Positions 49,336 to 62,159 are shown, counted from the first letter of the stretch. The stretch: DNA of 62,791 nt from Actinomycetota bacterium (GCA_016870195.1 VGCC01000011.1:1-62791), one strand, 5' to 3'. Notes: generated from the sequence alone by a model not told the origin. A program made the numbers and translations.

Positions 49336-49416
49336 CTCGATTCCTGGTTTCGGGAGTGGAGGGTACCGAGGTCCATCAGGATGGGTCCCGAGGGTTCGCC
49401 AGTGAAGGAGGCAACG

Positions 49417-50847
49417 ATGACGACGGTCGCCGCCGTCGACCTGGGTGCCACCAGCGGCCGTGTCGTGCTCGTGGATTATCGCGACGACACGGTGACCCTC
49501 GACGAGATCACCCGCTTCCCCAACCACCCGCAGCAGCGGGACGGCCGATGGGTGTGGGATGCAGCCGGGCTGCTCGCGTCCGCGACCGCCGGGCTGGAGA
49601 CCGCGGCCGAGCGCGGGGCCGCTTCCTTCGGGGTGGACACCTGGGGCGTCGACTACGGCGTGATCCGCGACGGGGTACCCCTGGGTCCGGTGCGCGCGTA
49701 TCGCGACCCCATCAACGAACGGGGAATCGGGCTGGTCGAGGCGACACTCCCCTGGAACCGGCTCTACTCACTCTGCGGTATCCAACGCATGACGATCAAC
49801 ACCATCTACCAGGTCGCCGTCGACGAGCCCCAACGATTGGTCGAGGGCTCGACCTTCCTGCCGATCCCCGACCTCCTCGCCTACCTGATCACCGGTGTCG
49901 CGGGCACCGACGTCACCCACGCTTCGACCTCCTCCATGGTGGCCACGGGAAGTCGCGAGTGGACGGGGGAGGTCCTCGATGCCCTCGGCGTGCCACGTTC
50001 GGCATTCCTCCGGCCCGACGAGCCGGGCACGATTCGGGGGCCCGCACTGCTCCCGGGCCTCCGCGGGATGCCACACATCAGCGTCGGCGCACATGACACG
50101 GCAAGTGCCTACGCCGGGACTCCTATCGCAAACCGCGACACTGCACTCGTCCTGTCCCTCGGCACGTGGGCTCTCATCGGCGCCGAATGCGTCGACGTCT
50201 TCCCCACCGATGCCGCGCGCGAACTGAACGTGACCCACGAACTCGGCGTTGAGGGGACTGTGCGGGTCCTCCGCAACGTCACGGGCATGTGGCTGTTGGA
50301 GGAGTGCCGACGGGCCTGGGGGGACGTCGATGGGCACGCCCCATCCGTACTCGACCTGATCGAGGCCGCGACGCAGTCCCCCGCCTTCTCGGGGATCCTC
50401 GACGTCGATACACCGCAACTCGCCGCACCCGGTCAGTCCCCCGAGACCCTGGCACCGCATATTCGGGGTACCTGGGATGGCACCCGCGGCGGACTCACCC
50501 GGATATTGCTCGAATCCCTCGTGGCGCGCGTTGCCGAACGTGCCCGGCAGATCACCACCCTCTTGGGTGGTTCACGCGATGTCCTGCACGTCGTGGGAGG
50601 AGCGAGTCGACTTGCACCCGTGATGCAGTGGTTGGCCGATGCAACGAACATGCGGGTCATCGCCGGGCCGACGGAGGCAACCGCACTGGGGAACGCCCTG
50701 GTCCAGTGGCGTGCGCTGGGCGCGATCGCATCGTTAGAAGAAGCGCGACGTGCCATCGGTGCACTTCCCGAGATTCGGGAGTACACGCCCAGTGGGAACT
50801 ACGAGGCCTGGCGACGTTACGCCGACCGGCTCACCGAATCTGCGTGA
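49417..50847 (+). CDS. Rhamnulokinase-like FGGY sugar kinase
   Basis: 476 residues from ATG 49417, 6 nt after [24 protein letters not shown] is the N-terminal phosphate motif of the RhaB group, TWGVDYGVI follows, GAHDTASA contains the likely catalytic Asp and [11 protein letters not shown] the adenosine region. RhaB makes L-rhamnulose 1-phosphate, and relatives phosphorylate C1 of other ketoses. A class II aldolase and two SDRs follow, but no rhamnose isomerase, so I do not assign L-rhamnose. A polyol-derived ketose, produced by the adjoining SDR, fits better. Confidence 0.82.
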
Positions 50848-50876
50848 CAATAGGCTCACGGCCAGGAGGAGTAGCG

Positions 50877-51638
50877 ATGCGTTGTGCGGGAATGACCGCG
50901 GTCATCACCGGGGGTAGCCGCGGTATCGGCTACACGCTGGCGAATGCTCTCGCCGCAGAGGGTGCGCGTATCAGCCTCATCGACATCCTGGACGACGTCA
51001 CCGACTCCGCACAGAAGATCATCGACACACATGGCGTCAAAGCGGCGGGAGTCGTGGCAGACGTCACGGACGCCGCGGCACTCGATTCCGCCTTCATGTC
51101 CCTGGCCACGGCAGTAGGCACCGCGGACATCCTCGTCACGAGCGCGGGAATTACCCAGTGGGGTGACTCCATCGATGTCACCCCCGAGGAGTGGCAGCGC
51201 GTCCTCGACATCAATCTGAACGGCACCTTCTTCGCCTGCCAGTCCTTCGGCCGCCGGCTGCTCGCGGAGGGACGTCCCGGGTCCGCGATTCTGGTGTCCT
51301 CGATGTCCGCGCAGATCGTGAACGTTCCGCAATTCCAGGCGTCGTATCACGCCTCGAAGGCCGCGGTGAGCATGCTTGCGAAATCCCTGGCGGTGGAGTG
51401 GGCAACCCGAGGCATCCGCGTCAATGCACTCGAGCCGGGGTACACGCTCTCCGCGATGACGCGGCAGTTCATGGATGCCAATCCGGACCTGCGTGTTCGG
51501 TGGGAGGACATGATCCCCGCGCGGCGCATGGGGGAACCTGAGGATCTCGTCGGGGTCGTGATCCTGCTGGCATCGGCCGAGTCCGCGTACCTGACAGGTC
51601 AATCGATCGTCGTCGACGGCGGATACACGGCGGTCTGA
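50877..51638 (+). CDS. SDR oxidoreductase, polyol dehydrogenase-like
   Basis: 253 residues from ATG 50877 with AGGAGGAG upstream. TGGSRGIG binds the cofactor; SAGI replaces NNAG; SSMSAQIVNVPQFQASYHASKAAV carries catalytic Ser, Tyr and Lys. The NxPQxQxxYxASKA pattern and the ALEPGYTLSAMTRQF segment recall SDR-type arabinitol, mannitol or sorbitol dehydrogenases. Placed between a ketose kinase and an aldolase, it probably oxidises a sugar alcohol to the ketose used by the kinase. Its stop overlaps the next ATG (TGATG). Confidence 0.8.
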   Translation: MRCAGMTAVITGGSRGIGYTLANALAAEGARISLIDILDDVTDSAQKIIDTHGVKAAGVVADVTDAAALDSAFMSLATAVGTADILVTSAGITQWGDSIDVTPEEWQRVLDINLNGTFFACQSFGRRLLAEGRPGSAILVSSMSAQIVNVPQFQASYHASKAAVSMLAKSLAVEWATRGIRVNALEPGYTLSAMTRQFMDANPDLRVRWEDMIPARRMGEPEDLVGVVILLASAESAYLTGQSIVVDGGYTAV

Positions 51639-52402
51639 TGACCGACCTCGCCTCCCTCATCGCGACGAGCCGGGTCGCCGGTGAACCCGGGCGCCATCTG
51701 GCTATCGCCGCCGAGGGAAACATCTCCCTGCGCGCCAGTGACGACTCGATGTGGATCAAGGCCAGCGGGTGTTCCCTCGCCACCCTCGGTGACGACGACG
51801 TGCTCTTGGTCGATCGCGCACCGATCCGCGCACTCCTCGACGATCCCACTGCCGACGATGCGGCTGTCACCGCCGCGTACGCCTCATGCGTTATCGAGGG
51901 GCAGTCCGGTCGCCGACCCTCCGTCGAGGCGCTACTTCATGGGGTCCTCTACGACACGACCGATGCCGCGTGCATCCTGCACACCCATCCGATCGCAGTG
52001 AACCGGCTGCTGTGTTCGGTTGCTGCGGACGCACTCGTGGCGGGAGCGGTCTTCCCTGATCAGATCGTGATGCTGGGCCAACGCCAACTGCTCGTCCCCT
52101 ACGTCGATCCCGGTCTTCCATTGGCGCGCGAGGTGCGAACTCAGGTCCAGCACTTCACCGACGAGGAAGGGGCACCGCCCACGGTCGTCTACCTGCGCAA
52201 CCACGGTGTGTTCGTGATGGCACCCACCCCGGAGCAGGCACTGGCGATGACCGAGATGTGTGTGAAGGTGGCCAGCGTCATCGAAGGTGCTCTCGCCGTC
52301 GGTGGTCCGGTGTATCTCGACTCCGCCTCGTCGCGGCGCATCGAAACCCGCCCCGATGAGCACTACCGCAGACGGATGCTTGATGGATCGGAGGGTCGAT
52401 GA
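51638..52402 (+). CDS. Class II (zinc) aldolase, fuculose/rhamnulose-phosphate aldolase family
   Basis: 254 residues. EGNISLR near 27-33 and KASGCSL bind phosphate, HTHP (about 108-111) and the His in LRNHGVFV bind zinc, and Glu in PSVEALLH is the likely acid/base. The family splits ketose 1-phosphates into DHAP and an aldehyde (lactaldehyde from 6-deoxyhexuloses, glycolaldehyde from pentuloses). With the kinase and dehydrogenase upstream it completes a route to DHAP. Ends 4 bp into the next gene. Confidence 0.83.
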   Translation: MTDLASLIATSRVAGEPGRHLAIAAEGNISLRASDDSMWIKASGCSLATLGDDDVLLVDRAPIRALLDDPTADDAAVTAAYASCVIEGQSGRRPSVEALLHGVLYDTTDAACILHTHPIAVNRLLCSVAADALVAGAVFPDQIVMLGQRQLLVPYVDPGLPLAREVRTQVQHFTDEEGAPPTVVYLRNHGVFVMAPTPEQALAMTEMCVKVASVIEGALAVGGPVYLDSASSRRIETRPDEHYRRRMLDGSEGR

Positions 52403-53127
52403 CCACAGTGCAGGGAATGCGGGCTGTCATCACCGGGGCGAGCTCCGGGATCGGCAAGGCCTTCGCTCGGAGTCTGGACGCGGCAGGAGTGCACCTTGTG
52501 CTCGTGGGTCGAAGTGAAGAGCGCCTGGCGACGGTCGCCTCCGCGCTTTCGAAGGAGCCGGTACTCATCTCCGGGGATGTTTCCGATGCAACGACGGCAC
52601 GTCGGGCGATCCAGGCCTGCCTGGATACCTACGGTGGACTCGACATCGTCCTGCCCAACGCCGGTCTCTACCTTCCGGACAAGGGGTGGGAGGTGCCCGA
52701 TGAGCGGGTCCACCACATGATCACCACGAATGTCGCCGGAGTCATGCATACGGTGCACGCCGCGCTGCCACACCTTCTTGACCAGGGCGCCGGTGACATC
52801 TTCGTCACCAGTTCGGTGTCCGGCCACCAGGCGATTTCCTGGGAGCCGGTCTACACCGCCACGAAGCACGCGGTTCAGGCCTTCGTGCATGCAACTCGTC
52901 AGCAGATCGTTGGGTCCGGAGTTCGCTTGGGTGCGATCGCGCCCGGAATCGTGCTCAACGAACTATGGGGCGTCTCAGAGTCGGATTCGTCCATCGACGA
53001 TCGGGTCGCGGCCCATGCAGGTATTCGGTCCGAGGACGTCGCTGCCGGACTGATGTTCATGCTAACCCAGCCGCGTCACGTGACGATCCGCGATCTGGTG
53101 ATGCTGCCCACCGCACAACCGATATAG
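52399..53127 (+). CDS. SDR oxidoreductase, possible aldehyde or polyol dehydrogenase
   Basis: 242 residues. TGASSGIGKAFARSL, PNAG (in place of NNAG), VTSSVSGHQAISWEPVYTATKHAV with catalytic Ser, Tyr and Lys. GGLDIVLPNAGLYLPDKGWEVPDERV and the RDLVMLPTAQ terminus fit the Sdr_a group of NADP-linked enzymes such as serine or polyol dehydrogenases. As last gene of the operon it may handle the aldehyde released by the aldolase, or be a second sugar-alcohol dehydrogenase. Overlaps the aldolase as ATGA. Confidence 0.78.
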   Translation: MTTVQGMRAVITGASSGIGKAFARSLDAAGVHLVLVGRSEERLATVASALSKEPVLISGDVSDATTARRAIQACLDTYGGLDIVLPNAGLYLPDKGWEVPDERVHHMITTNVAGVMHTVHAALPHLLDQGAGDIFVTSSVSGHQAISWEPVYTATKHAVQAFVHATRQQIVGSGVRLGAIAPGIVLNELWGVSESDSSIDDRVAAHAGIRSEDVAAGLMFMLTQPRHVTIRDLVMLPTAQPI

Positions 53128-53207: not shown

Positions 53208-54188
53208 TTAGCACTTGGCGCGGTACTGAGCCGCCTTGCCTGCCTTGGTGTCGACGTTCTTCTTCGTGAGGATGGTGAAGCCGGTCGTGATCTTCTTCTC
53301 GGTCGGCTCACCCTTCAACTTGGCAACGGCCTGCTGCACACCCTGCACGCCGATGTCGTACGGCTGCTGAGCGATGAGCGCCTGGACGGTGCCATCCTTG
53401 AGGGCCTTCACCTGGTCGGGACCGGCGTCGAAGCCGATGATCACGATCTTGCCTTCCTTACCGGCCTGCTTGATGGCGGTGGCCACACCCTGTGCTGAGA
53501 ACAGGTTGCTGGCGAAGACCGCCTTGATGTCGGGGTTCTTCGCGAGAGCCGCCGTCATCTTCTGAGCCGCGATGGCCGGCTCGTTCTCCGAGTACTCCTG
53601 AGACACGAAGGTGTACTTGCTACCGCTCGCCTTCACGGCATCCGAGAAGCCCTTGTCACGAGCGTCGGTGGTGCTGATGCCCGGGCGCACGCCCATCGCC
53701 ATCACCTTGCCGCCGCCGGGAACGAGCTGCTCAACAGCCTTGAACGCCTGCTCGCCACCCGCGAGGTTGTTGGAGGAGATCTCCGACACCGCAAACTTCG
53801 GGTTATTCACAGTCGTGTCCACGAGGACGATCTCGATGCCGGCCTTCTTGGCGGCCTCGAGCGGCTTCTGCATCGCCTTGACATCGTTCGGGGCGATCAG
53901 GATCGCGTCAGGCTTCTTGGCCACAACGGCCTCGAGGATCGGACGCTGGAGGGTGGCATCGAACTTCGCCGGGCCCTCGGTGGTGACCTTTGCGCCGAGC
54001 TTCTTGGCCTCGGCACGAACGCCACAGTCCATGGTGATGTAGAAGCCGTCGCCCTTCACACCCTGGATGAACACGATGTTCTCTCCGGCCGCATTCGCGA
54101 CAGGAGCAACGCCAAGCGAGAGACCGGCGACAACCCCGATACCGAGAGCTGCAACAGCGGTTCGCTTGATCAGATTCTTGCTACCCAC
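53208..54188 (-). CDS. Sugar ABC transporter substrate-binding protein
   Basis: 326 residues from GTG 54188 with GAAGG upstream. Signal peptide ends at ANA (33) with no lipobox, so it is secreted and not lipid-anchored. The two-lobed Peripla_BP_4 fold of ribose/galactose-type proteins is clear: IVFIQGVKGDGFYITMDCG, PDAILIAPNDVKAM, IVLVDTTVN, VFASNLFSAQGVATA and IGFDAGPDQVKALKDG. The protein is unusually Lys-rich for this genome, with AAG almost exclusively, suggesting high expression. It serves the permease and ATPase just upstream. Confidence 0.88.
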   Translation of the reverse strand: MGSKNLIKRTAVAALGIGVVAGLSLGVAPVANAAGENIVFIQGVKGDGFYITMDCGVRAEAKKLGAKVTTEGPAKFDATLQRPILEAVVAKKPDAILIAPNDVKAMQKPLEAAKKAGIEIVLVDTTVNNPKFAVSEISSNNLAGGEQAFKAVEQLVPGGGKVMAMGVRPGISTTDARDKGFSDAVKASGSKYTFVSQEYSENEPAIAAQKMTAALAKNPDIKAVFASNLFSAQGVATAIKQAGKEGKIVIIGFDAGPDQVKALKDGTVQALIAQQPYDIGVQGVQQAVAKLKGEPTEKKITTGFTILTKKNVDTKAGKAAQYRAKC

Positions 54189-54190
54189 CT

Positions 54191-55279
54191 TTAACCTTCT
54201 TTCTCTTTACCCCGAAGGGTCAGCCCTCCGACTTGGAGGGGTTTGGACTTCTTCCCCGATCCCTTGAATGCACGCGCACGGCGTACGCCGTCCAGGTACA
54301 CAGCACCGATCAGGAACATTCCCACCACGACGCCCTGCCAGTAGGCCTGGACCCCGATGATGATGAAGCCGGCCTGCAGCATCACGGGGATGAGCAGTCC
54401 GATGACCGTGCCAAAGATGGTACCGATGCCTCCGAAAAGGCTGGTACCACCAATGACAACGCCTGCGATGACGGTCAAAGCCGTCATGGAGTTACCACCG
54501 ATGGTGGTCTGCTGGAAATACGCGACGCTCAGGATGCCGGCGATTCCCGCCGTGGTCCCTGAGATGACGTAGACCCCGATGAGTTGACGATCGACGTTTA
54601 TGCCCACGCGACGGCACGCTTCAGGGTTCGAGCCGACCGCGTAGGTGTAGAGGCCGAAACGTGTCTTGTGGAGCAGGATGCCGCCGAGAACGCAGATGGC
54701 CGCCGCGATGACCGTCAGTGTGGGAACCTCGGCGAAGACATTCCCGAAGCCGACAGTGTCGACGAGGACCGTCGGAATCTCATAGAGATCAATGCCACCG
54801 GTGATGACCTGGGCCAGGCCCAGGGCCGCGCCGAGGGTTCCCAGCGTCACGATGAACGCCGGCACTTTTGCCTTCGCTACCAGCAAGCCGTTGATCAGAC
54901 CCCACACGGCACCTGCCGCGATGGACGCGATGGTCCCCGCGAGGGCGGCACCCCATCCTTGTGCACCCATCGCCCCCATGACTTGGGCGCCGATAACGCT
55001 GCTGAAGACGAGCACCGATCCAATGGACAGATCGATACCGGCTGTGATGATCACCAGGGTCGCGCCCACGCCGAGCACGGCGAAGATCGACGTGTTCAGG
55101 ATGATGGAGCGCAGGTTGAACACGGTGGGGAACGCATCCGGTGCCATGATCGAGAAGATCACGCACAGGACAACGAGGACGATAACGATTTGCGCGGCTT
55201 GGACGCGCGAGAGTCGCCGCCAGACGGACATCCGCGGTGTGTCGAGTAGTTCGTGGGCGAGAGCGGTCTGCGCGCTCAT
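54191..55279 (-). CDS. Sugar ABC transporter permease (RbsC/FrcC type)
   Basis: 362 residues with eight to ten helices of the BPD_transp_2 family. ITAGIDLSIGSVLVFSSVIGAQVMGA, NGLLVAKAKVPAFIVTLGTLG and YAVGSNPEACRRVGINVDR (the ATPase-contact EAA-like loop) are the family landmarks. A single permease gene indicates a homodimeric channel. It overlaps the ATPase by 4 bp and the binding-protein gene follows after 2 bp. Confidence 0.9.
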   Translation of the reverse strand: MSAQTALAHELLDTPRMSVWRRLSRVQAAQIVIVLVVLCVIFSIMAPDAFPTVFNLRSIILNTSIFAVLGVGATLVIITAGIDLSIGSVLVFSSVIGAQVMGAMGAQGWGAALAGTIASIAAGAVWGLINGLLVAKAKVPAFIVTLGTLGAALGLAQVITGGIDLYEIPTVLVDTVGFGNVFAEVPTLTVIAAAICVLGGILLHKTRFGLYTYAVGSNPEACRRVGINVDRQLIGVYVISGTTAGIAGILSVAYFQQTTIGGNSMTALTVIAGVVIGGTSLFGGIGTIFGTVIGLLIPVMLQAGFIIIGVQAYWQGVVVGMFLIGAVYLDGVRRARAFKGSGKKSKPLQVGGLTLRGKEKEG

Positions 55280-56031
55280 GCGACCTCCTCATCCAATGCA
55301 CCGGTCATCGTTCCGACGAGTTCCTCAAGGGATGTCTCCGACGTCTTATAGACGGCGACGCGGCGACCGCGGCGCATCACTTGAACACGATCGGACACCT
55401 GCAGTACCTCCGGCATCGAGTGGCTGATGAACACCACACCGATTCCCCTGTCACGAACACGTTTGACCATCTCCAGCACGTTCTTGGTCTGGACAACGCC
55501 GAGGGCGGCGGTGGGCTCGTCGAGGAAGATGATCTCGTTCGCCCAGGATGCGGACCGGGCAACGGCGATGCTCTGCTTTTGACCACCGGACATGGAGCCC
55601 ACAGGTTCCGTCAGTGTCCGGACGGTGGCCCCGAGCTCACTGAACGCACCCACGGAGCCCTCCTTCATCTCCTTGCGGTTCATGAAGCCGAGTGCACCGA
55701 GGAGTCCCTTGCGCTTGACCTCCCGGCCCAGGTAGAGGTTGTTGACCGCGTCCAGGTGTGGGCAGAGCGCAAGATCCTGGAAGACCGTTTCGATACCGAG
55801 GTTTCGGGCATCCGCAGGCTTCGAAAGTTTGACTTCTTTCCCCTTGAACAGGATGGTGCCGCCTTCGGGCTGTTCGGTGCCGGAGAGGATCTTGATCATC
55901 GTGCTCTTGCCCGCGCCGTTGTCACCGATGAGGGCCGTCACTTCGCCCGCCTCGACGGTGAAGTCGGCCTCGTCGAGGGCGACTACCTGGCCATAGGTGC
56001 GCACGATGCCGCGCGCCTCGAGAATCGCCAT
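55276..56031 (-). CDS. Sugar ABC transporter ATPase (single-domain, FrcA-like)
   Basis: 251 residues, one nucleotide-binding domain: Walker A GDNGAGKST, Q loop TVFQDLAL, signature MSGGQKQSIAVARS, Walker B IIFLDEPTAALG and switch SHS. Ribose and arabinose systems normally have two fused domains; this one resembles FrcA-type single-domain subunits that dimerise. ATG 56031 lies 13 bp below the aldolase stop. Confidence 0.9.
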   Translation of the reverse strand: MAILEARGIVRTYGQVVALDEADFTVEAGEVTALIGDNGAGKSTMIKILSGTEQPEGGTILFKGKEVKLSKPADARNLGIETVFQDLALCPHLDAVNNLYLGREVKRKGLLGALGFMNRKEMKEGSVGAFSELGATVRTLTEPVGSMSGGQKQSIAVARSASWANEIIFLDEPTAALGVVQTKNVLEMVKRVRDRGIGVVFISHSMPEVLQVSDRVQVMRRGRRVAVYKTSETSLEELVGTMTGALDEEVA

Positions 56032-56044
56032 GTCCCTGTCCTCC

Positions 56045-56962
56045 CTACTGTCCCACCGTGAACCACGGACGAGCCCGACCCGCGATCGCTTCCCTGCAGG
56101 CCTGCAGACGAGGGCGGGCTACATCCTGCAGGAAACGCTCCTGCTCCGCACCCTGCATTCCGATGGCTTCCTTCCAGACGGAGCGACCCGCGATGAAACC
56201 TGAGGCGCCCCCTTCGTCACACGAAACTTTAAGCACATCCGTGAAGGTGGCGAAGTCCACCCCTGCGCTCAGGACGGCCCAGGGCACGGTGACCGTGTCC
56301 GCGAGATTCCGACACGCCTCGGCGCTGCCCGGGTACTCCAACTTCAGGAGATCGGGCTCGAGCGCGGTGAGGAGAGCCGCCGACTCGATGATGGCCGTGG
56401 CGCGCTGCTCCGGTGTCAGGGAGTCCGCCGGTGGGACCGGGTAGATCAGGTTCTCGATCACCGAAGGAATGCCCACCGCGCGACAGTCTGCGACCACGTC
56501 ACGCACAACCTGGAGGGTCTCCTCTGTCAGGGCCGGTTCCCCGGCCTTGGTCACGCGCGCCGGATTCATCATGATGAGGAACTTGACCGCCTGCCCGCCC
56601 ATGTCCTTCACCCACGCTGCATCTTGATCGACCTGACGTGACGGGCGGGGCTCGCCGTTGAACGATCCGCGCTCGGCGGGCTCCGCTGCAACGAGGAGTC
56701 CGCAGGTGGGCGCAAGCGCTCCCGCCTCGGTGACCGCGGGCACTCCGAAGGTGGGATCGAGCAGAATCCCCGTCGCGTCAGGCGTCAGAGCACCGGCGAC
56801 GGCGACCTTGGCTTCACGCATCTGTGCATCAGTCGCGTCCACACCTACCGCTTTGAACATGCGGCGCAGTGTGTTGCGCTGATCCATCGCGATGATCGCG
56901 AAGGTGCCGTCGGGATCGGCGATGGCGGAGAGCGAAATCGCCGACGCGGTACCGGTACTCAT
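56045..56962 (-). CDS. Class I aldolase of the LacD/YihT family
   Basis: 305 residues. AIIAMDQRNTLRRMF near residues 22-36 has the DQR substrate motif shared by tagatose-1,6-bisphosphate aldolase (LacD) and sulfofructose-phosphate aldolase (YihT); LLDPTFGVPA is LacD-like; LLKLEYPG carries the Schiff-base Lys; WAVLSAGVD and GASGFIAGRSVWKEAIG are closer to YihT. It is therefore between the two groups and the phosphorylated substrate is unresolved. A PfkB kinase, an FGGY kinase and an ABC importer in the same operon suggest cleavage of a ketose bisphosphate. It ends 13 bp before the ATPase gene and overlaps the FGGY gene by 1 bp. Confidence 0.78.
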   Translation of the reverse strand: MSTGTASAISLSAIADPDGTFAIIAMDQRNTLRRMFKAVGVDATDAQMREAKVAVAGALTPDATGILLDPTFGVPAVTEAGALAPTCGLLVAAEPAERGSFNGEPRPSRQVDQDAAWVKDMGGQAVKFLIMMNPARVTKAGEPALTEETLQVVRDVVADCRAVGIPSVIENLIYPVPPADSLTPEQRATAIIESAALLTALEPDLLKLEYPGSAEACRNLADTVTVPWAVLSAGVDFATFTDVLKVSCDEGGASGFIAGRSVWKEAIGMQGAEQERFLQDVARPRLQACREAIAGRARPWFTVGQ

Positions 56963-58344
56963 CAGATGAACTCCTTCATATGTGTGGTGCGTGCATGGGC
57001 AAACTCAGGGTGTGCGAGCGAGAGACCCGCGGCCTCTGCGGCGAACAGGCAGGCGCCGCGGGCACCGGGCTGCAGATGCTCACTCACCTGCAACCCAGGG
57101 AAGATATGTGCCTTGCCACGGGCTACCCCCGGGACATGGGCCCATCCACCTGCGGCCACCGCGAACGTGTACTCGCCCGCCACTGCCGTGATCGGGCGCA
57201 CCAGTGCACGAGTTTCTGCGAGGACGTAGTCCATGGCGGCGCACCAGACATCCTCGGGGCGGGTGTCGTCCCGCAACTGCACCGTGACCTCGTTGGTCCA
57301 ATTCCCGGGCTCGGACACCACCACGGTTCCGTTCTGCTTCCACTCCGGAGTCCACGCTTCCGAGATGCGCGCGCGTTCCTCGTGGGTGTGTGCACCCACC
57401 ATGGACAGGACCCGGCCGAGGACCAGTCCCGAACGAGTGGCTCCGAGGATCGCGGTGCTCTCGGGCAGAACGTGGCGCCCCGCGCTAAGCCCCGATGCCA
57501 CGAGAGAAGCGCGCTCGTCGTTGGTGAGTGTGCGCGGAAGGGTCCGCAGGATGACATCCGCAGTTCCGCAGGAGTCGTAGAGGTCGTCGCCTCCGATGGC
57601 GCCCGCGCCCACGGAGCCGACCAGGTGATCATGACCGGCAACGGTCACCTGGGCATTGCGCAGGATGCCCGGGGCATCCTCGTGCGCACGCCCGAAGGGG
57701 ACACCCGCCGGGCGCATGTCTGGAACGAAGGAGGCATCTGCGCCGATCATCGACAGGGTCCGCGACCAAGGAACAACGGCCGCTTGATCCAGGAGTCCGG
57801 TGCGCGATGCCAGCGAGGGTTCAGTGAAGAGTGCGCCGGTCAGCGCATACGCAACATACTCGAGGGCATTCGCCCAGCGCATCCCCGGCGTGATCGTGAA
57901 GCCGTGCGTGGTGAGCCACAACAACTTCGAGAATGAGCACTCCGCCTTTGCGGCCAGTCCCGTGACAGCCTGAAACTCGTCACGAAACTCCTGCGGAAGT
58001 GCTGCGAACTCCTCGGCGCCACGCTGGTCGTACCACGCCATCGCAGGAGTGACCGCGGTGCCGGATGCATCGACGATCACACCGGTCTCAGCCATCCCCG
58101 TGATGCCTATCCCGAGCACCTCGACCGGGGCGGGGCACCTCTCTGCCGCCTGGGCCATCACGCGTACCGCGGCGTCCACGAACGCACCGATCTCTGCGTG
58201 CACGTTCCCGTTCTCTTCGACGATCCACGGCGTGGTCTCGCCTGCCTGACCGAGGATGACTCCGTCGATATCGGTTGCGATCGCCTTGAAGGAGGTGGTG
58301 CCGAGGTCGATACCGATCAGGACGGGAGTGCGTGCGGGACTCAT
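56962..58344 (-). CDS. FGGY-family carbohydrate kinase
   Basis: 460 residues. LIGIDLGTTSFKAIATD is the first phosphate motif, AWYDQRG in the middle contacts sugar, VAGHDHLVG has the likely catalytic Asp and DSCGTADVI the second phosphate loop. It belongs to the xylulokinase/gluconokinase-like branch, separate from the rhamnulokinase-like protein at 49417. In the operon it may act first on the imported sugar. Its ATG 58344 overlaps the LacI stop by 4 bp. Confidence 0.84.
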   Translation of the reverse strand: MSPARTPVLIGIDLGTTSFKAIATDIDGVILGQAGETTPWIVEENGNVHAEIGAFVDAAVRVMAQAAERCPAPVEVLGIGITGMAETGVIVDASGTAVTPAMAWYDQRGAEEFAALPQEFRDEFQAVTGLAAKAECSFSKLLWLTTHGFTITPGMRWANALEYVAYALTGALFTEPSLASRTGLLDQAAVVPWSRTLSMIGADASFVPDMRPAGVPFGRAHEDAPGILRNAQVTVAGHDHLVGSVGAGAIGGDDLYDSCGTADVILRTLPRTLTNDERASLVASGLSAGRHVLPESTAILGATRSGLVLGRVLSMVGAHTHEERARISEAWTPEWKQNGTVVVSEPGNWTNEVTVQLRDDTRPEDVWCAAMDYVLAETRALVRPITAVAGEYTFAVAAGGWAHVPGVARGKAHIFPGLQVSEHLQPGARGACLFAAEAAGLSLAHPEFAHARTTHMKEFI

Positions 58345-59369
58345 GCGCTCGCCTCCAAGTGGGCAGGGGTCAACTCGCCCGATCCGCGCTCGATCAAGCG
58401 GAGGGGCACGATCGTGTCGCTGCCGTCATCGGGGACTCCCGCCATGCGCTCGGTGAGGCGATCCATCGCCGCGCTGGCCAACATGGCCGGGTCGTGGTCG
58501 ATAGCCGTCACTGCGGGGGTGATCACGTCGGCCGTGACGAAGTCGCCGAAAGAGATGAGTGCGATATCGGTCCGGCCTGAAGCGTGCAGTTGGCGCACCA
58601 CACCGAGGGATGTCTCCGAGCGGGAACTGAAGATCGCGGTGGGCGCGTGGGGGCCGGAGATGAGGGCTTCCGTCGCAGAAAACGCATCGTGAGCGTCGCG
58701 GCACCCATGGGCTTCGAGCCGCTCTTCGATCGGGAGGCCACGGTCACGTAGTGCGTCGTGATAACCCAAGTGACGCAGTTTTGAGGTGCGGATGGTGAGG
58801 TCGTCGGTCACGATGGCGACGCGGCGGTGCCCGTGCTCGGCGAGGTGCAGGACCGCGGCGCGCGCCGCTCCCTGGTCATCGACCCGCACCACTCCCGAGT
58901 CCAGTCCTCGCGGATGCCGGTCGATGAACACCGTCGGCGTGGGGATGCGTTGGAGGAAGGAGTAATCGGCGAATTCGGGGGTGATGATCAGTCCCGCGAC
59001 GCGGCGGCCGATGAGGCCCTCCACGATCTCGCGCTCTGTTTCCGCGGAATACGAGTTGGACGCGACGAGCAGCTTCACTCCCAGATCCAGGGAGCGCTTC
59101 TCGATCTCCTCGATGGCCTTGGCGAAGAACGGGTCTCCGATGGTGGGAACGACGATCCCGATGGTGTCGTCCACCCCGCGTCGCAGGGAGCGGGCCGTGA
59201 CATCGACCTGATAGCCCAGCGACTCGACGGCCTGCTCCACACGTCGACGGGTATCGGGTGACACGCGGGAGTCACCATTGACAACACGCGACGCGGTCTT
59301 CGTGCTGGTGCCGGCGGCATCCGCTACGTCCCGAAGCCGCACCACCTTCCTGCTCATGGAACCGCTCAT
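58341..59369 (-). CDS. LacI-family transcriptional repressor
   Basis: 342 residues. The HTH and hinge are VRLRDVADAAGTSTKTASRVVNGDSRVSPDTRRRV (about 10-45), followed by the Peripla_BP-like sensor domain: GIVVPTIGDPFFAKAIEEIE, VFIDRHPRG and ISFGDF. It is in the operon between pfkB and the FGGY kinase, so it is likely local and autoregulated. Two LacI-type operators lie upstream of the operon (60384-60432). Overlaps pfkB by 4 bp. Confidence 0.9.
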   Translation of the reverse strand: MSGSMSRKVVRLRDVADAAGTSTKTASRVVNGDSRVSPDTRRRVEQAVESLGYQVDVTARSLRRGVDDTIGIVVPTIGDPFFAKAIEEIEKRSLDLGVKLLVASNSYSAETEREIVEGLIGRRVAGLIITPEFADYSFLQRIPTPTVFIDRHPRGLDSGVVRVDDQGAARAAVLHLAEHGHRRVAIVTDDLTIRTSKLRHLGYHDALRDRGLPIEERLEAHGCRDAHDAFSATEALISGPHAPTAIFSSRSETSLGVVRQLHASGRTDIALISFGDFVTADVITPAVTAIDHDPAMLASAAMDRLTERMAGVPDDGSDTIVPLRLIERGSGELTPAHLEASA

Positions 59370-60370
59370 AGCGACACCCCCGTGGCGATGACCGCCTCCG
59401 GCACGCGGGACAGCAACTCGGAATAGCGCTCACGCACCACGCCACCGGCGAGCACCTGCTCACAGGAGGCCGCTGCGCATGCCACACCGGAGCGCGCGGC
59501 TTCGACGATGGTTGCGAAATCCTCGGACATTCCGCCATGCATCCAGGTATGGGCGAATCCTGCGACGAACGAGTCACCCGCGCCGACCGTGCTGACGACG
59601 TCGACGGACACGGCGGATACCCATGCGTGCGCATCCGCGCTCGCGATCGCGACACCAGCGCCACCCGCAGTTACTAGGACGATTCGTGCACCGCGCTCCA
59701 CGAGTTGGCGGGCAGCGCGGTCGGCGCGCTCTCGTGCTTCATCATCGCCGAGTGCGTGCGAGTTCATGACGAGTGCGTCGGTGAGACCTAGGCACGCCTC
59801 GGCCTCATCGAGATTGGGCGCGATGACGTCGGGGTCGGTGGCGAGTACGGGCTCGAGCCACTGTGGGGCGGTGTCGACGAGAACTCGAGCACCGCGTGCA
59901 TGGAGACCCTCGACGAGATTGACGAGCGCGGATGACGGGAGCCCCATGGGGAGGCTTCCCATGATCATCACCAGGTCTCCCTCGTGCGCGGTGGTGACGA
60001 CGCGGGAGACCACATCGGCCCACTGCGCGGGATCCTCGAACGCGCCGGCTTCATTGATCACGGTGACACGATCGATCTCGCTCTCGAGCAGGATCGTCGC
60101 GGTGCGCACACCGCCCGTGACCGGGATGATCTCCGCGGCGAGTTTCTCCGCGGCCAGCAGGCCTTCGTAGGTGACCCGGTCGCGCGTGCCGACCGGGAGG
60201 ATCAGCAGCGCCTCCGCACCGAGGGATCGGAGGGCCCGCACGACGTTGATGCCCTTGCCCCCGCAGGTCAACTCCGCGCCCTGGGCGCGGATGACCGCCC
60301 CGGGGGAGACCCGGGGGACGCTCACCGTCCGGTCGAAGACCGGGTTCGGGTTGAAGACGAGCAGGGCGAT
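59366..60370 (-). CDS. PfkB-family sugar-phosphate kinase (LacC/FruK-like) with an apparent ATC start
   Basis: About 334 residues if translation begins at the ATC at 60370. The conserved first strand LLVFNPNPVFDRTV, with the substrate-binding Asp, is encoded only upstream of the first canonical start in frame (GTG 60325), and AGGAGG (60383-60378) sits exactly 7 nt before the ATC. GGKGINVVRAL near 38-48 and TVGAGDSFVAGF with the catalytic Asp complete the LacC/FruK signature. These enzymes phosphorylate ketose monophosphates to 1,6-bisphosphates. Starting at GTG 60325 would lose 15 residues, probably inactivating it. ATC differs from ATG by one base, so a mutated start or a sequencing error is possible; CTG at 60364 is another option. 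Confidence 0.82.
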   Translation of the reverse strand: MALLVFNPNPVFDRTVSVPRVSPGAVIRAQGAELTCGGKGINVVRALRSLGAEALLILPVGTRDRVTYEGLLAAEKLAAEIIPVTGGVRTATILLESEIDRVTVINEAGAFEDPAQWADVVSRVVTTAHEGDLVMIMGSLPMGLPSSALVNLVEGLHARGARVLVDTAPQWLEPVLATDPDVIAPNLDEAEACLGLTDALVMNSHALGDDEARERADRAARQLVERGARIVLVTAGGAGVAIASADAHAWVSAVSVDVVSTVGAGDSFVAGFAHTWMHGGMSEDFATIVEAARSGVACAAASCEQVLAGGVVRERYSELLSRVPEAVIATGVSL

Positions 60371-60383
60371 GGCGGTTCCTCCT

Positions 60384-60432
60384 GGGTAATCGTTGTCACG
60401 AGCACAGGTGCAACGGGGTAATCGTTGTCACG
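60384..60432 (-). promoter_or_regulatory. Two identical 17-bp LacI-type operators, 32 bp apart
   Basis: The minus-strand sequence CGTGACAACGATTACCC occurs at 60400-60384 and again at 60432-60416. Its core TGACAACGATTACC matches the LacI-family consensus TGnnAnCGnTnnCA at 9 of 10 fixed positions. The 32-bp period is three DNA turns, so two dimers would sit on the same face. Both sites lie between the predicted start point and the pfkB ribosome site. Confidence 0.75.
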
Positions 60433-60442
60433 GGACATGGTG

Positions 60443-60471
60443 ACGCTAGTGCGCGATGTGGCATCTGTCTA
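60443..60471 (-). promoter_or_regulatory. Predicted sigma70-type promoter of the seven-gene sugar operon
   Basis: TAGACA (60471-60466), 17 bp and TAGCGT (60448-60443) on the minus strand. The start point would be near 60436, a few bases before the first operator. The -35 box overlaps the stop codon of the upstream P-loop kinase gene. Confidence 0.45.
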
Positions 60472-60990
60472 GACCCCGGGTGAACTCCGGATGGCCTGGA
60501 GGACCGCCTCGGCCAGTTGCTCCGGGGGCAGGGCCGCGTCCAGGGCCAGGTGGGGGACACCGGGCCGAGCGGGGGCACCGGGCCGGGCCCCGTGGTCGCG
60601 CTCCGCCCCCCGGGCGAGCACCCGACGGGCGCGCTCCCCCTCGTCCAGGTCCAGCCAGACCAGGACCCAGCGCGGGCAGTCCTCGACCCAGCGCGCCCAG
60701 GAATCGGCGGTCGCGGCGGCACTCGTGAAGGGGGCGGACACCACGATCGGGGTGGGTCCCCCACCTGACTCCGACACTGCATCGTGGAGGGCCTGGTAGC
60801 GGGCGTCCTTGACCTGCTCCAGGAGCTGGGCCTCGGTGAGCTGGGGATGTGCCGTTCGGGCTTCGCCGACAACACCCGCGCTCACGTCATCGAAGTCGAG
60901 GTGCACGCCGTTCAGTCGGGCGGCGAGGACATCGGCCAGAGTCGACTTGCCTGTTCCGGCGCAACCTGCGACGAAGACCACGACGCCCAT
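60469..60990 (-). CDS. P-loop kinase-like protein (AAA_33 / gluconate-shikimate kinase type)
   Basis: 173 residues. Walker A GCAGTGKST (9-17) at the N-terminus, DFDD near 32-35, and a lid-like ERARRVLARGAERD segment near 117-130 place it among small nucleoside/sugar monophosphate-type kinases. The exact substrate is not clear; gluconate kinase-like or a nucleotide kinase are possible. The 3' half is very G/C-rich with short Ala-Pro-Gly-Arg repeats (RPGAPARPG). It is upstream of the sugar operon on the same strand but a separate promoter follows it. Confidence 0.62.
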   Translation of the reverse strand: MGVVVFVAGCAGTGKSTLADVLAARLNGVHLDFDDVSAGVVGEARTAHPQLTEAQLLEQVKDARYQALHDAVSESGGGPTPIVVSAPFTSAAATADSWARWVEDCPRWVLVWLDLDEGERARRVLARGAERDHGARPGAPARPGVPHLALDAALPPEQLAEAVLQAIRSSPGV

Positions 60991-61067
60991 CTACACGACC
61001 ACCATGCCCATATGACAGTCTCCCTACAACGAGTGGTCGTCATGCTAGATGGCACAGAGGGAGCACG

Positions 61068-62159
61068 ATGCAGGTCATCCATGGTGAGGAGTCCATCCAG
61101 ATCCGCAGTTCCACCACCACGGCATGGGTCACACTTCGTGGCGCGCACGTTGCTCCGGTCGAGTTCACCCTCGGCTCGCGCACGGTGCAGCCCTACTCCC
61201 TATCGCCCTGGCTTCCGGCGGAACAGCGTGGTCAGGATCCGCTACTTCAGGTGCTGCGCGGAGATTTCTTCTGTCTTCCCTTCGGCGCTCAGTCGGCTGG
61301 ACCGCCCCATGGCGTCATCGCGGGGAACCCATGGACCGTGATCGATGAGCGCCCCCAGGCACTCACCTTGCGCATAACCGCCGAGGACATAGGTGCAACG
61401 GTGACCAAATCGGTCGAGGTCCGCGATAGTGACACCTCGCTCTACCAACAGTTCGAGATCGAGGGGCTATCCGGCCTCTACAACTATGGAACCCATCCGG
61501 TCCTGGACATGAGTGGCTCCCCGGCAGGCTCGGTGGAGTTGACCACGTCGCCCATCCGCTACGGATCGGTGGCGCCCACGCTCTTCTCCGATCCCGCACG
61601 GGGTGAGCATCAGGTTCTGGAGATCGGAGGCACGTTCACGTCACTTGCATCGGTACCACGTGCGGATGGTCTGATCCTCGACCTCAGTCATCTCCCCACC
61701 CCACCAGGGCATGAGGACTTGGTGATGATCGCACCAGAGGTGCGCACGGGAGTGGCGTGGAACGCACTGCGTTTCCCAGACTACGTGTGGTTCTCACTGC
61801 GTCGGGTGGAGGACTTTCCGGCCACGGTTCTGTGGGTGTCGAACGGTGGCCGGTCGCAAGCGCCATGGTCGAGTCGTCACACTGGCCGCATAGGGATTGA
61901 GGACGTCTGCTCCTACTTCGCCGAGGGGCACGAACCGTCGACCGCGGCACCGCTCGCGCACGTGGGAATCCCCACGGCGCGCGAGTTTCGGGCGACCGAA
62001 CCGGTGCGTCTCCGGGTGGTTCAGGCTGTTGCTGCACTTCCTGTGGAGTTCGGCAGGATCACGGACATCCGCGATCACAAAGGGTACGCGGTGATCGTCG
62101 ATGACGTGGGACGCGAAGTATCGACTGCGACGAGCTGCACGTACCTCAGCGGGGAGTAG
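61068..62159 (+). CDS. Aldose 1-epimerase-like protein (galactose mutarotase fold)
   Basis: 363 residues from ATG 61068, after GAGGGAGC. DFFCLPFGAQSAGPPHGVIAGNPW near 64-87 has the HG that bears the catalytic His of mutarotases, and LYNYGTHPVLDM and APEVRTGVAWNALRFPDYVWFSLR continue the beta-sandwich. The Glu expected near the C-terminus may be in RIGIEDVCSYF. It is longer than typical GalM (about 300-350) and closer to the DUF4432/hexose mutarotase-like group. Next to the sugar operon it may interconvert anomers of the imported sugar. Confidence 0.62.
   Translation: MQVIHGEESIQIRSSTTTAWVTLRGAHVAPVEFTLGSRTVQPYSLSPWLPAEQRGQDPLLQVLRGDFFCLPFGAQSAGPPHGVIAGNPWTVIDERPQALTLRITAEDIGATVTKSVEVRDSDTSLYQQFEIEGLSGLYNYGTHPVLDMSGSPAGSVELTTSPIRYGSVAPTLFSDPARGEHQVLEIGGTFTSLASVPRADGLILDLSHLPTPPGHEDLVMIAPEVRTGVAWNALRFPDYVWFSLRRVEDFPATVLWVSNGGRSQAPWSSRHTGRIGIEDVCSYFAEGHEPSTAAPLAHVGIPTAREFRATEPVRLRVVQAVAALPVEFGRITDIRDHKGYAVIVDDVGREVSTATSCTYLSGE

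Follow-up and report, generated by a model that had tools for sequence, protein, structure and literature searches.

Architecture, regulation and distribution of the operon

The window, i.e. the whole stretch of 62,791 nucleotides of an Actinomycetota bacterium analysed here, carries an operon of seven genes on its minus strand (53208-60370). It starts with a PfkB-family phosphosugar kinase, the proposed second kinase of the pathway discussed below (59366-60370; Pfam PfkB, E 6e-40), followed by a LacI-family repressor, which is probably local (58341-59369; Pfam LacI and Peripla_BP_3), an FGGY kinase of an uncharacterised clade, the proposed first kinase (56962-58344; Pfam FGGY_N, E 6e-26), and a class I aldolase of the DeoC/LacD family that is neither LacD nor YihT (56045-56962; Pfam DeoC, E 2.5e-23). 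The last three genes encode an ABC sugar importer with a single-domain ATPase (55276-56031; Pfam ABC_tran, with CUT2 sugar importers as the top NCBIfam models), an RbsC/AlsC-like permease (54191-55279; Pfam BPD_transp_2) and a sugar-binding protein (53208-54188; Peripla_BP_4, E 1.5e-56). The gene pairs PfkB/LacI, LacI/FGGY and ATPase/permease overlap by 4 nt and FGGY/aldolase by 1 nt, while aldolase and ATPase are separated by 13 nt and permease and binding protein by 2 nt. The tight packing of seven minus-strand genes in this order, described in an earlier note on this DNA, is therefore confirmed, with overlaps of at most 4 nt and gaps of at most 13 nt; the range given there (56045-60370) covers the four genes from PfkB to the aldolase, but leaves the three importer genes (53208-56031) outside. 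For PfkB, no ATG, GTG or TTG start agreed with the homologues, and alignment to orthologues points to an ATC codon at 60370 as the start, located 7 nt after AGGAGG. A sigma-70 promoter scan gave no match.

Upstream of the PfkB gene, the motif GTGACAACGATTACC is present in two exact copies on the minus strand (60385-60399 and 60417-60431). A search of the 2.1 Mb genome for a wider regulon of the repressor, allowing up to one mismatch to the 14-base core, gave these two sites and no others. The motif TGACAWCGATTACC was found upstream of PfkB in all nine relatives examined, usually twice and with variable spacing, with L052 and L018 having only one clear copy. The LacI proteins of the closest operons are 56-64% identical to that of the window. 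The unique doubled operator together with the conservation of the motif in relatives supports LacI as a local repressor, and we propose that it probably binds these sites. It would repress the operon via the two operators until an inducer appears.

A scan of the genome collection identified 21 loci with an aldolase 54-65% identical to that of the window, nearly all of them labelled as actinobacterial; cultivated carriers include Actinacidiphila soli LAM7114 and Nakamurella endophytica. Most of the complete loci repeat the series of FGGY kinase, aldolase, ATPase, permease and binding protein, preceded by LacI and in most cases by PfkB, and FGGY kinase and aldolase are the most constant enzyme pair across the related loci. 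The survey of gene neighbourhoods, which the earlier note had called for, thus found a conserved module: the enzymes, regulator and importer form a recurring unit in more than 20 other, mostly actinobacterial loci. Due to this recurrence and the repeated operator-like motif in front of the operon both here and in relatives, the gene arrangement is not a product of chance. A clear match to the module was detected in 4 of the 59 genomes searched (the window genome and three relatives), and among 396 genomes sampled across the phylum, scores like those of true family members were limited to the window genome and two others. With this patchy occurrence, the module behaves as an accessory catabolic module.

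The aldolase and the kinases

The structural model of the aldolase is confident (pLDDT 92.7) and matches LacD structures over about 290 residues (Z 37.5) as well as YihT (Z 34.6). D27, R29, K127, E170, K207, S232 and R260 are identical to the corresponding residues in LacD and YihT. With its Schiff-base lysine, this active-site set and a TIM-barrel model matching LacD, the protein belongs to the class I DeoC/LacD family (COG3684), and it would be expected to split a ketose bisphosphate through a Schiff base at Lys207. Clustering with deoxyribose-phosphate aldolases, named in the earlier note as an outcome that would speak against the proposed chemistry, was not borne out: fold and catalytic set are those of LacD and YihT, and the best NCBIfam matches are tagatose-bisphosphate aldolases.

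In a maximum-likelihood tree, the aldolase family (27 rows) forms a separate clade (82/94) apart from LacD and from the YihT clade. Against the lacD equivalog model, the window protein scores 76.8 bits, far under the cut-off of 432, and with its separate clade it is not a plain LacD tagatose-bisphosphate aldolase. Position 174, an invariant Arg in the YihT clade, is Tyr or Phe in the window family as in LacD, and assignment as a YihT sulfofructosephosphate aldolase was rejected on this residue and on the clade. The basic residues 98, 106 and 109 in the loop following strand 88-92 are invariant or near-invariant and particular to this family, while a short loop after Lys207 (YPGS..EAC) is common to the family and a Rhizobium aldolase. 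The earlier note was right to caution against assuming either tagatose or sulfofructose as the substrate, because the aldolase represents a third clade.

The lactose/tagatose 6-phosphate pathway (LacABCD) likewise combines a PfkB kinase (LacC) with a class I COG3684 aldolase (LacD) of the same fold and catalytic residues. In contrast to that pathway, which acts on a PTS-phosphorylated sugar and includes LacAB, the operon described here has an ABC importer and an FGGY kinase, and its aldolase and PfkB fall into other clades; neither PTS import nor a LacAB isomerase was found in the window operon. The sulfo-EMP pathway (YihSTUV) also pairs a PfkB kinase with a COG3684 aldolase, here at about 34% identity, and YihT is the best PDB sequence match of the window aldolase (E 1.4e-34). 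However, sulfoquinovosidase and the YihT-clade Arg are lacking here, a second kinase is present, and neither a sulfoquinovose isomerase nor a sulfolactaldehyde reductase or dehydrogenase (YihS-, YihU- or GabD-like) was found in the window operon or seen repeatedly around the operons of relatives. A protein of Paracoccus strain Merri named sulfohexulose 1-phosphate aldolase (PDB 8tnf) has the same fold (Z 37.1, 30% identity), but in the tree it lies outside the window aldolase family, next to a Variovorax protein and, with weak support, to LacD. A PF01791 homologue of Paracoccus strain Merri was not raised by sulfofucose (PMC12421959).

The best NCBIfam match of the PfkB protein is 1-PFK/hexose kinase (about 204 bits, below the cut-off). 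In a tree, as proposed in the earlier note, PfkB groups with FruK, Pfk-2 and LacC, apart from RbsK and YihV (91/88). In the alignment, the positions of Arg29 and Arg90 of Pfk-2, which we take to be the residues binding the phosphate of the acceptor in that enzyme, are kept in the PfkB family; they are present in LacC and absent from ribokinase and YihV. Both arginines and the grouping apart from ribokinase and YihV place the protein among the phosphosugar-type PfkB kinases (Pfk-2/LacC/FruK). Thus, a phosphorylated acceptor is likely, and phosphorylation of a sugar phosphate by PfkB is credible from the alignment. Since LacC has both arginines and FruK only the second, the residues lean to an acceptor whose phosphate sits at the far end. 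The HMM scores of PfkB are higher for 1-phosphofructokinase models than for LacC, which would fit the reverse order of phosphorylation.

The FGGY kinase has its catalytic Asp aligned with D233 of XylB in every family member and forms a separate clade (100/99). Its best model is XylB with 100.6 bits (cut-off 380). The known FGGY equivalogs XylB, GlpK, FucK, RhaB, AraB and LsrK were all rejected, as no model cut-off was passed and no close grouping occurred; with no characterised enzyme grouping closely, the tree gave no specificity. Since members of the FGGY family can place the phosphate at C1 or on the last carbon, the phosphorylation order could go either way.

The locus had been described as a two-kinase operon. 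We count three kinases, as a P-loop small-molecule kinase of the AAA_33 type is encoded just upstream of the operon (60469-60990, minus strand; Pfam AAA_33, E 2e-12) and is a recurrent neighbour, its gene lying near the operon in most relatives. In L017, L020, L023 and L026, the operon contains no close PfkB homologue, and L020, L023 and L026 nevertheless keep FGGY kinase and aldolase. All four of these loci have the P-loop kinase gene nearby; hence, the role of second kinase may be filled by different families, and the P-loop kinase may take it over in loci without PfkB.

Importer, binding protein and isomerase

By sequence and by model comparison, the closest PDB relative of the binding protein is Avi_5339 of Agrobacterium vitis (5dkv; E 1.6e-58), to which the model aligns with Z 35.8 and an rmsd of 3.0 over 293 residues at 40% identity. 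At 15 positions aligned to what we take to be the sugar contacts of the ribose-binding protein, the window protein is identical to a Rhizobium Avi_5339-like protein in 13 and to E. coli RbsB in 8. The presumed pockets of the window protein and the Avi_5339-like protein thus nearly match. Avi_5339 is stated to bind mannoheptulose, as an unpublished result, by Leyn et al. 2017 (PMC5507952).

Nine related loci have a gene resembling mannose-6-phosphate isomerase, which is part of the operon in L022, L025, L026, L043 and L044 and adjacent to it in L012, L015, L017 and L052 (L056 is the wider region of L052). The window genome has a counterpart, a 54% identical homologue that lies among housekeeping genes (C3:90596-91549). 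The earlier suggestion that an FGGY kinase takes the place of an isomerase is not general in view of the ManA-like gene at the nine related loci and the homologue elsewhere in the window genome. Due to the isomerase-like gene in or beside the operons of relatives, the imported sugar may be an aldose in some species.

A proposed ketose bisphosphate pathway and its alternatives

We propose that the operon probably serves the import, two successive phosphorylations and bisphosphate cleavage of a ketose. Binding protein, permease and ATPase would import a free ketose, or an aldose that is first isomerised to a ketose. The FGGY kinase would act first and most likely phosphorylate the terminal carbon (C6 in a hexulose, C7 in a heptulose). 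C1 would be phosphorylated next, by PfkB or, in relatives that lack it, by the P-loop kinase encoded nearby. Forming a Schiff base via Lys207, the class I aldolase would then cleave the 1,6- or 1,7-bisphosphate to DHAP plus an aldose phosphate, which would be glyceraldehyde 3-phosphate from a hexulose and erythrose 4-phosphate from a heptulose. While the genes, the catalytic residues, their conservation and the operator motif are observed, we infer the substrate, the order of phosphorylation and the products. The sugar could be a heptulose such as D-mannoheptulose or a ketohexose such as D-tagatose. Such a pathway would be testable and would unite three clades of no assigned function, the widespread aldolase, the FGGY kinase and the PfkB kinase.

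Import, two phosphorylations and LacD-type cleavage, as read in the earlier note, remain the best reading of the gene set, but a pathway of this type had been proposed before. In Rhodobacteraceae bin08, a locus encoding an ABC transporter, a COG3684 aldolase, a ROK kinase and a COG0529 kinase was proposed to convert mannoheptulose via the 7-phosphate and the 1,7-bisphosphate to DHAP and erythrose 4-phosphate (Leyn et al. 2017, PMC5507952). In the literature on bacterial mannoheptulose operons and FGGY/tagatose operons, we found no closer precedent. Both systems have an ABC importer with an Avi_5339-type binding protein, a COG3684 aldolase, two successive kinases and a proposed bisphosphate cleavage, and the window operon unites such a binding protein and aldolase in one unit; a P-loop kinase is also encoded near the actinobacterial operons. 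They differ in the kinases, ROK and COG0529-type there and FGGY and PfkB here, in the LacI control and in the ManA-like isomerase sometimes found here, and both pathways are proposed ones. Neither a ROK kinase (COG1940) nor a COG0529-type kinase was found with the window operon, which only the AAA_33 P-loop kinase adjoins. On a Rhizobium plasmid, an aldolase, a ROK/P-loop fusion kinase, an Avi_5339-like binding protein, a permease and an ATPase are encoded together. The Rhizobium COG3684-type aldolase has a long branch and does not join the window aldolase family in the tree, and the window P-loop kinase matches the P-loop half of the fusion kinase weakly (24%, E 0.001). By analogy, the operon looks like an actinobacterial variant of the proposed mannoheptulose route with FGGY and PfkB as kinases. 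It would represent an independent second lineage for a bisphosphate-cleavage route so far proposed only for mannoheptulose.

The earlier reading of a ketose 1,6-bisphosphate is thus right in the bisphosphate route, but too narrow in the substrate, because the mannoheptulose 1,7-bisphosphate proposed by Leyn et al. (PMC5507952) comes with a binding protein near the closest solved relative of the window protein; a 1,7-bisphosphate is as likely. We tentatively suggest, as a possibility with somewhat less than even chances, a dedicated heptulose pathway in aquatic and soil actinobacteria, e.g. for D-mannoheptulose or sedoheptulose, in which an FGGY heptulokinase forms the 7-phosphate, PfkB the 1,7-bisphosphate and the new aldolase clade DHAP and erythrose 4-phosphate. 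If true, this would be a bacterial route, accessible to assays, for C7 sugars, which are abundant in plants such as avocado, and a parallel to the proposed alphaproteobacterial pathway built from different kinases.

Alternatively, the FGGY kinase could phosphorylate C1, like fuculokinase or rhamnulokinase, with the aldolase releasing DHAP and an aldehyde that carries no phosphate. In this case, PfkB, the P-loop kinase or both would act on this aldehyde or on another sugar. FGGY kinase and aldolase being the most constant pair, with PfkB missing beside them in L020, L023 and L026, would fit such a ketose 1-phosphate route, as would the fact that YihT, a homologue at similar distance, cleaves a substrate with its sole phosphate at C1 (PMC8873060). 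However, the arginine positions for a phosphosugar acceptor are kept in the PfkB family, a second kinase seems to be kept in form of the P-loop kinases near PfkB-less loci, and the FGGY clade is separate from FucK and RhaB, and we consider this route unlikely. Still less probable is a catabolism of fructose or mannose that duplicates glycolysis with the FGGY protein as fructokinase, PfkB as phosphofructokinase and the aldolase as class I FBP aldolase. LacD-type aldolases also bind fructose 1,6-bisphosphate (PDB 5f2g is an FBP complex) and a ManA-like isomerase is often present in related loci, but a class II FBP aldolase and eight further matches to the PfkB family are already present in the genome, the module is patchy, and the pocket of the binding protein is like that of Avi_5339 and not of the ribose type. 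Breakdown of a sulfosugar with the aldolase as sulfofructose 1-phosphate aldolase is highly improbable despite the PDB match to YihT, because the aldolase clade is separate from YihT, the YihT-clade Arg is absent and no gene for handling sulfolactaldehyde was seen to recur in the neighbourhoods of the operons; moreover, PfkB does not group with YihV and one kinase would be surplus.

Next to the P-loop kinase gene, a divergent gene for a protein of 365 residues is located on the plus strand (61062-62159). Both genes are recurrent neighbours of the operon and were overlooked in the earlier note. Sequence searches with the divergent gene gave no Pfam, NCBIfam or PDB match and it belongs to no known family, but it is conserved, with homologues of 48-51% identity adjoining the operon in six other loci.

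Putative sugar genes flanking the operon

Convergent with the seven-gene operon, the plus strand of the window encodes at 49375-53127 a RhaB-like FGGY kinase, an SDR, a class II aldolase/adducin-type protein and another SDR. The same four gene types are found at positions 7661-11402 of L056, the wider region of the related locus L052, where they lie on the opposite side of the operon and are preceded by a DeoR-like gene, and parts of the cluster occur near the operon in loci L015 and L026. We propose that the cluster probably represents a second sugar pathway linked to the operon.

On the operon's other side, a conserved protein of 365 residues is encoded at 61062-62159 (plus strand), and its homologues (48-51% identity) also adjoin the operon in L008, L013, L014, L052, L053 and L055. 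Sequence searches against Pfam, NCBIfam and PDB gave no match; on inspection by eye the protein reads like a sugar mutarotase.

PfkB start codon and origin of locus L008

By alignment, PfkB starts with ATC at window positions 60368-60370 (minus strand), where orthologues carry ATG. The codon is preceded by AGGAGG at a distance of 7 nt, and is either a rare start codon or an assembly base error.

The contig of L008 is labelled Rubrivirga. Its aldolase is nearly identical to that of the actinobacterial loci L013 and L014, and its flanking genes match theirs; a misbinned contig is probably the explanation, rather than gene transfer.

Other aldolases near kinase genes

Another clade of aldolases, divergent at 27-31% identity, is represented at L022:2461-3354, L027:1911-2714 and L044:4312, close to PfkB or P-loop kinase genes. 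The L022 member has DHP in place of DQR, so that the conserved Asp is kept and the following Arg is substituted. On a Cereibacter plasmid (L029:7998-9792), a YihT-clade aldolase is encoded beside a YihV-like kinase and two dehydrogenases, one an aldehyde dehydrogenase and the other a zinc alcohol dehydrogenase, possibly as a variant of the sulfo-EMP pathway. Elsewhere in the window's own genome (G000:C3:58173-60015), a class II FBP aldolase match immediately adjoins another PfkB kinase match.
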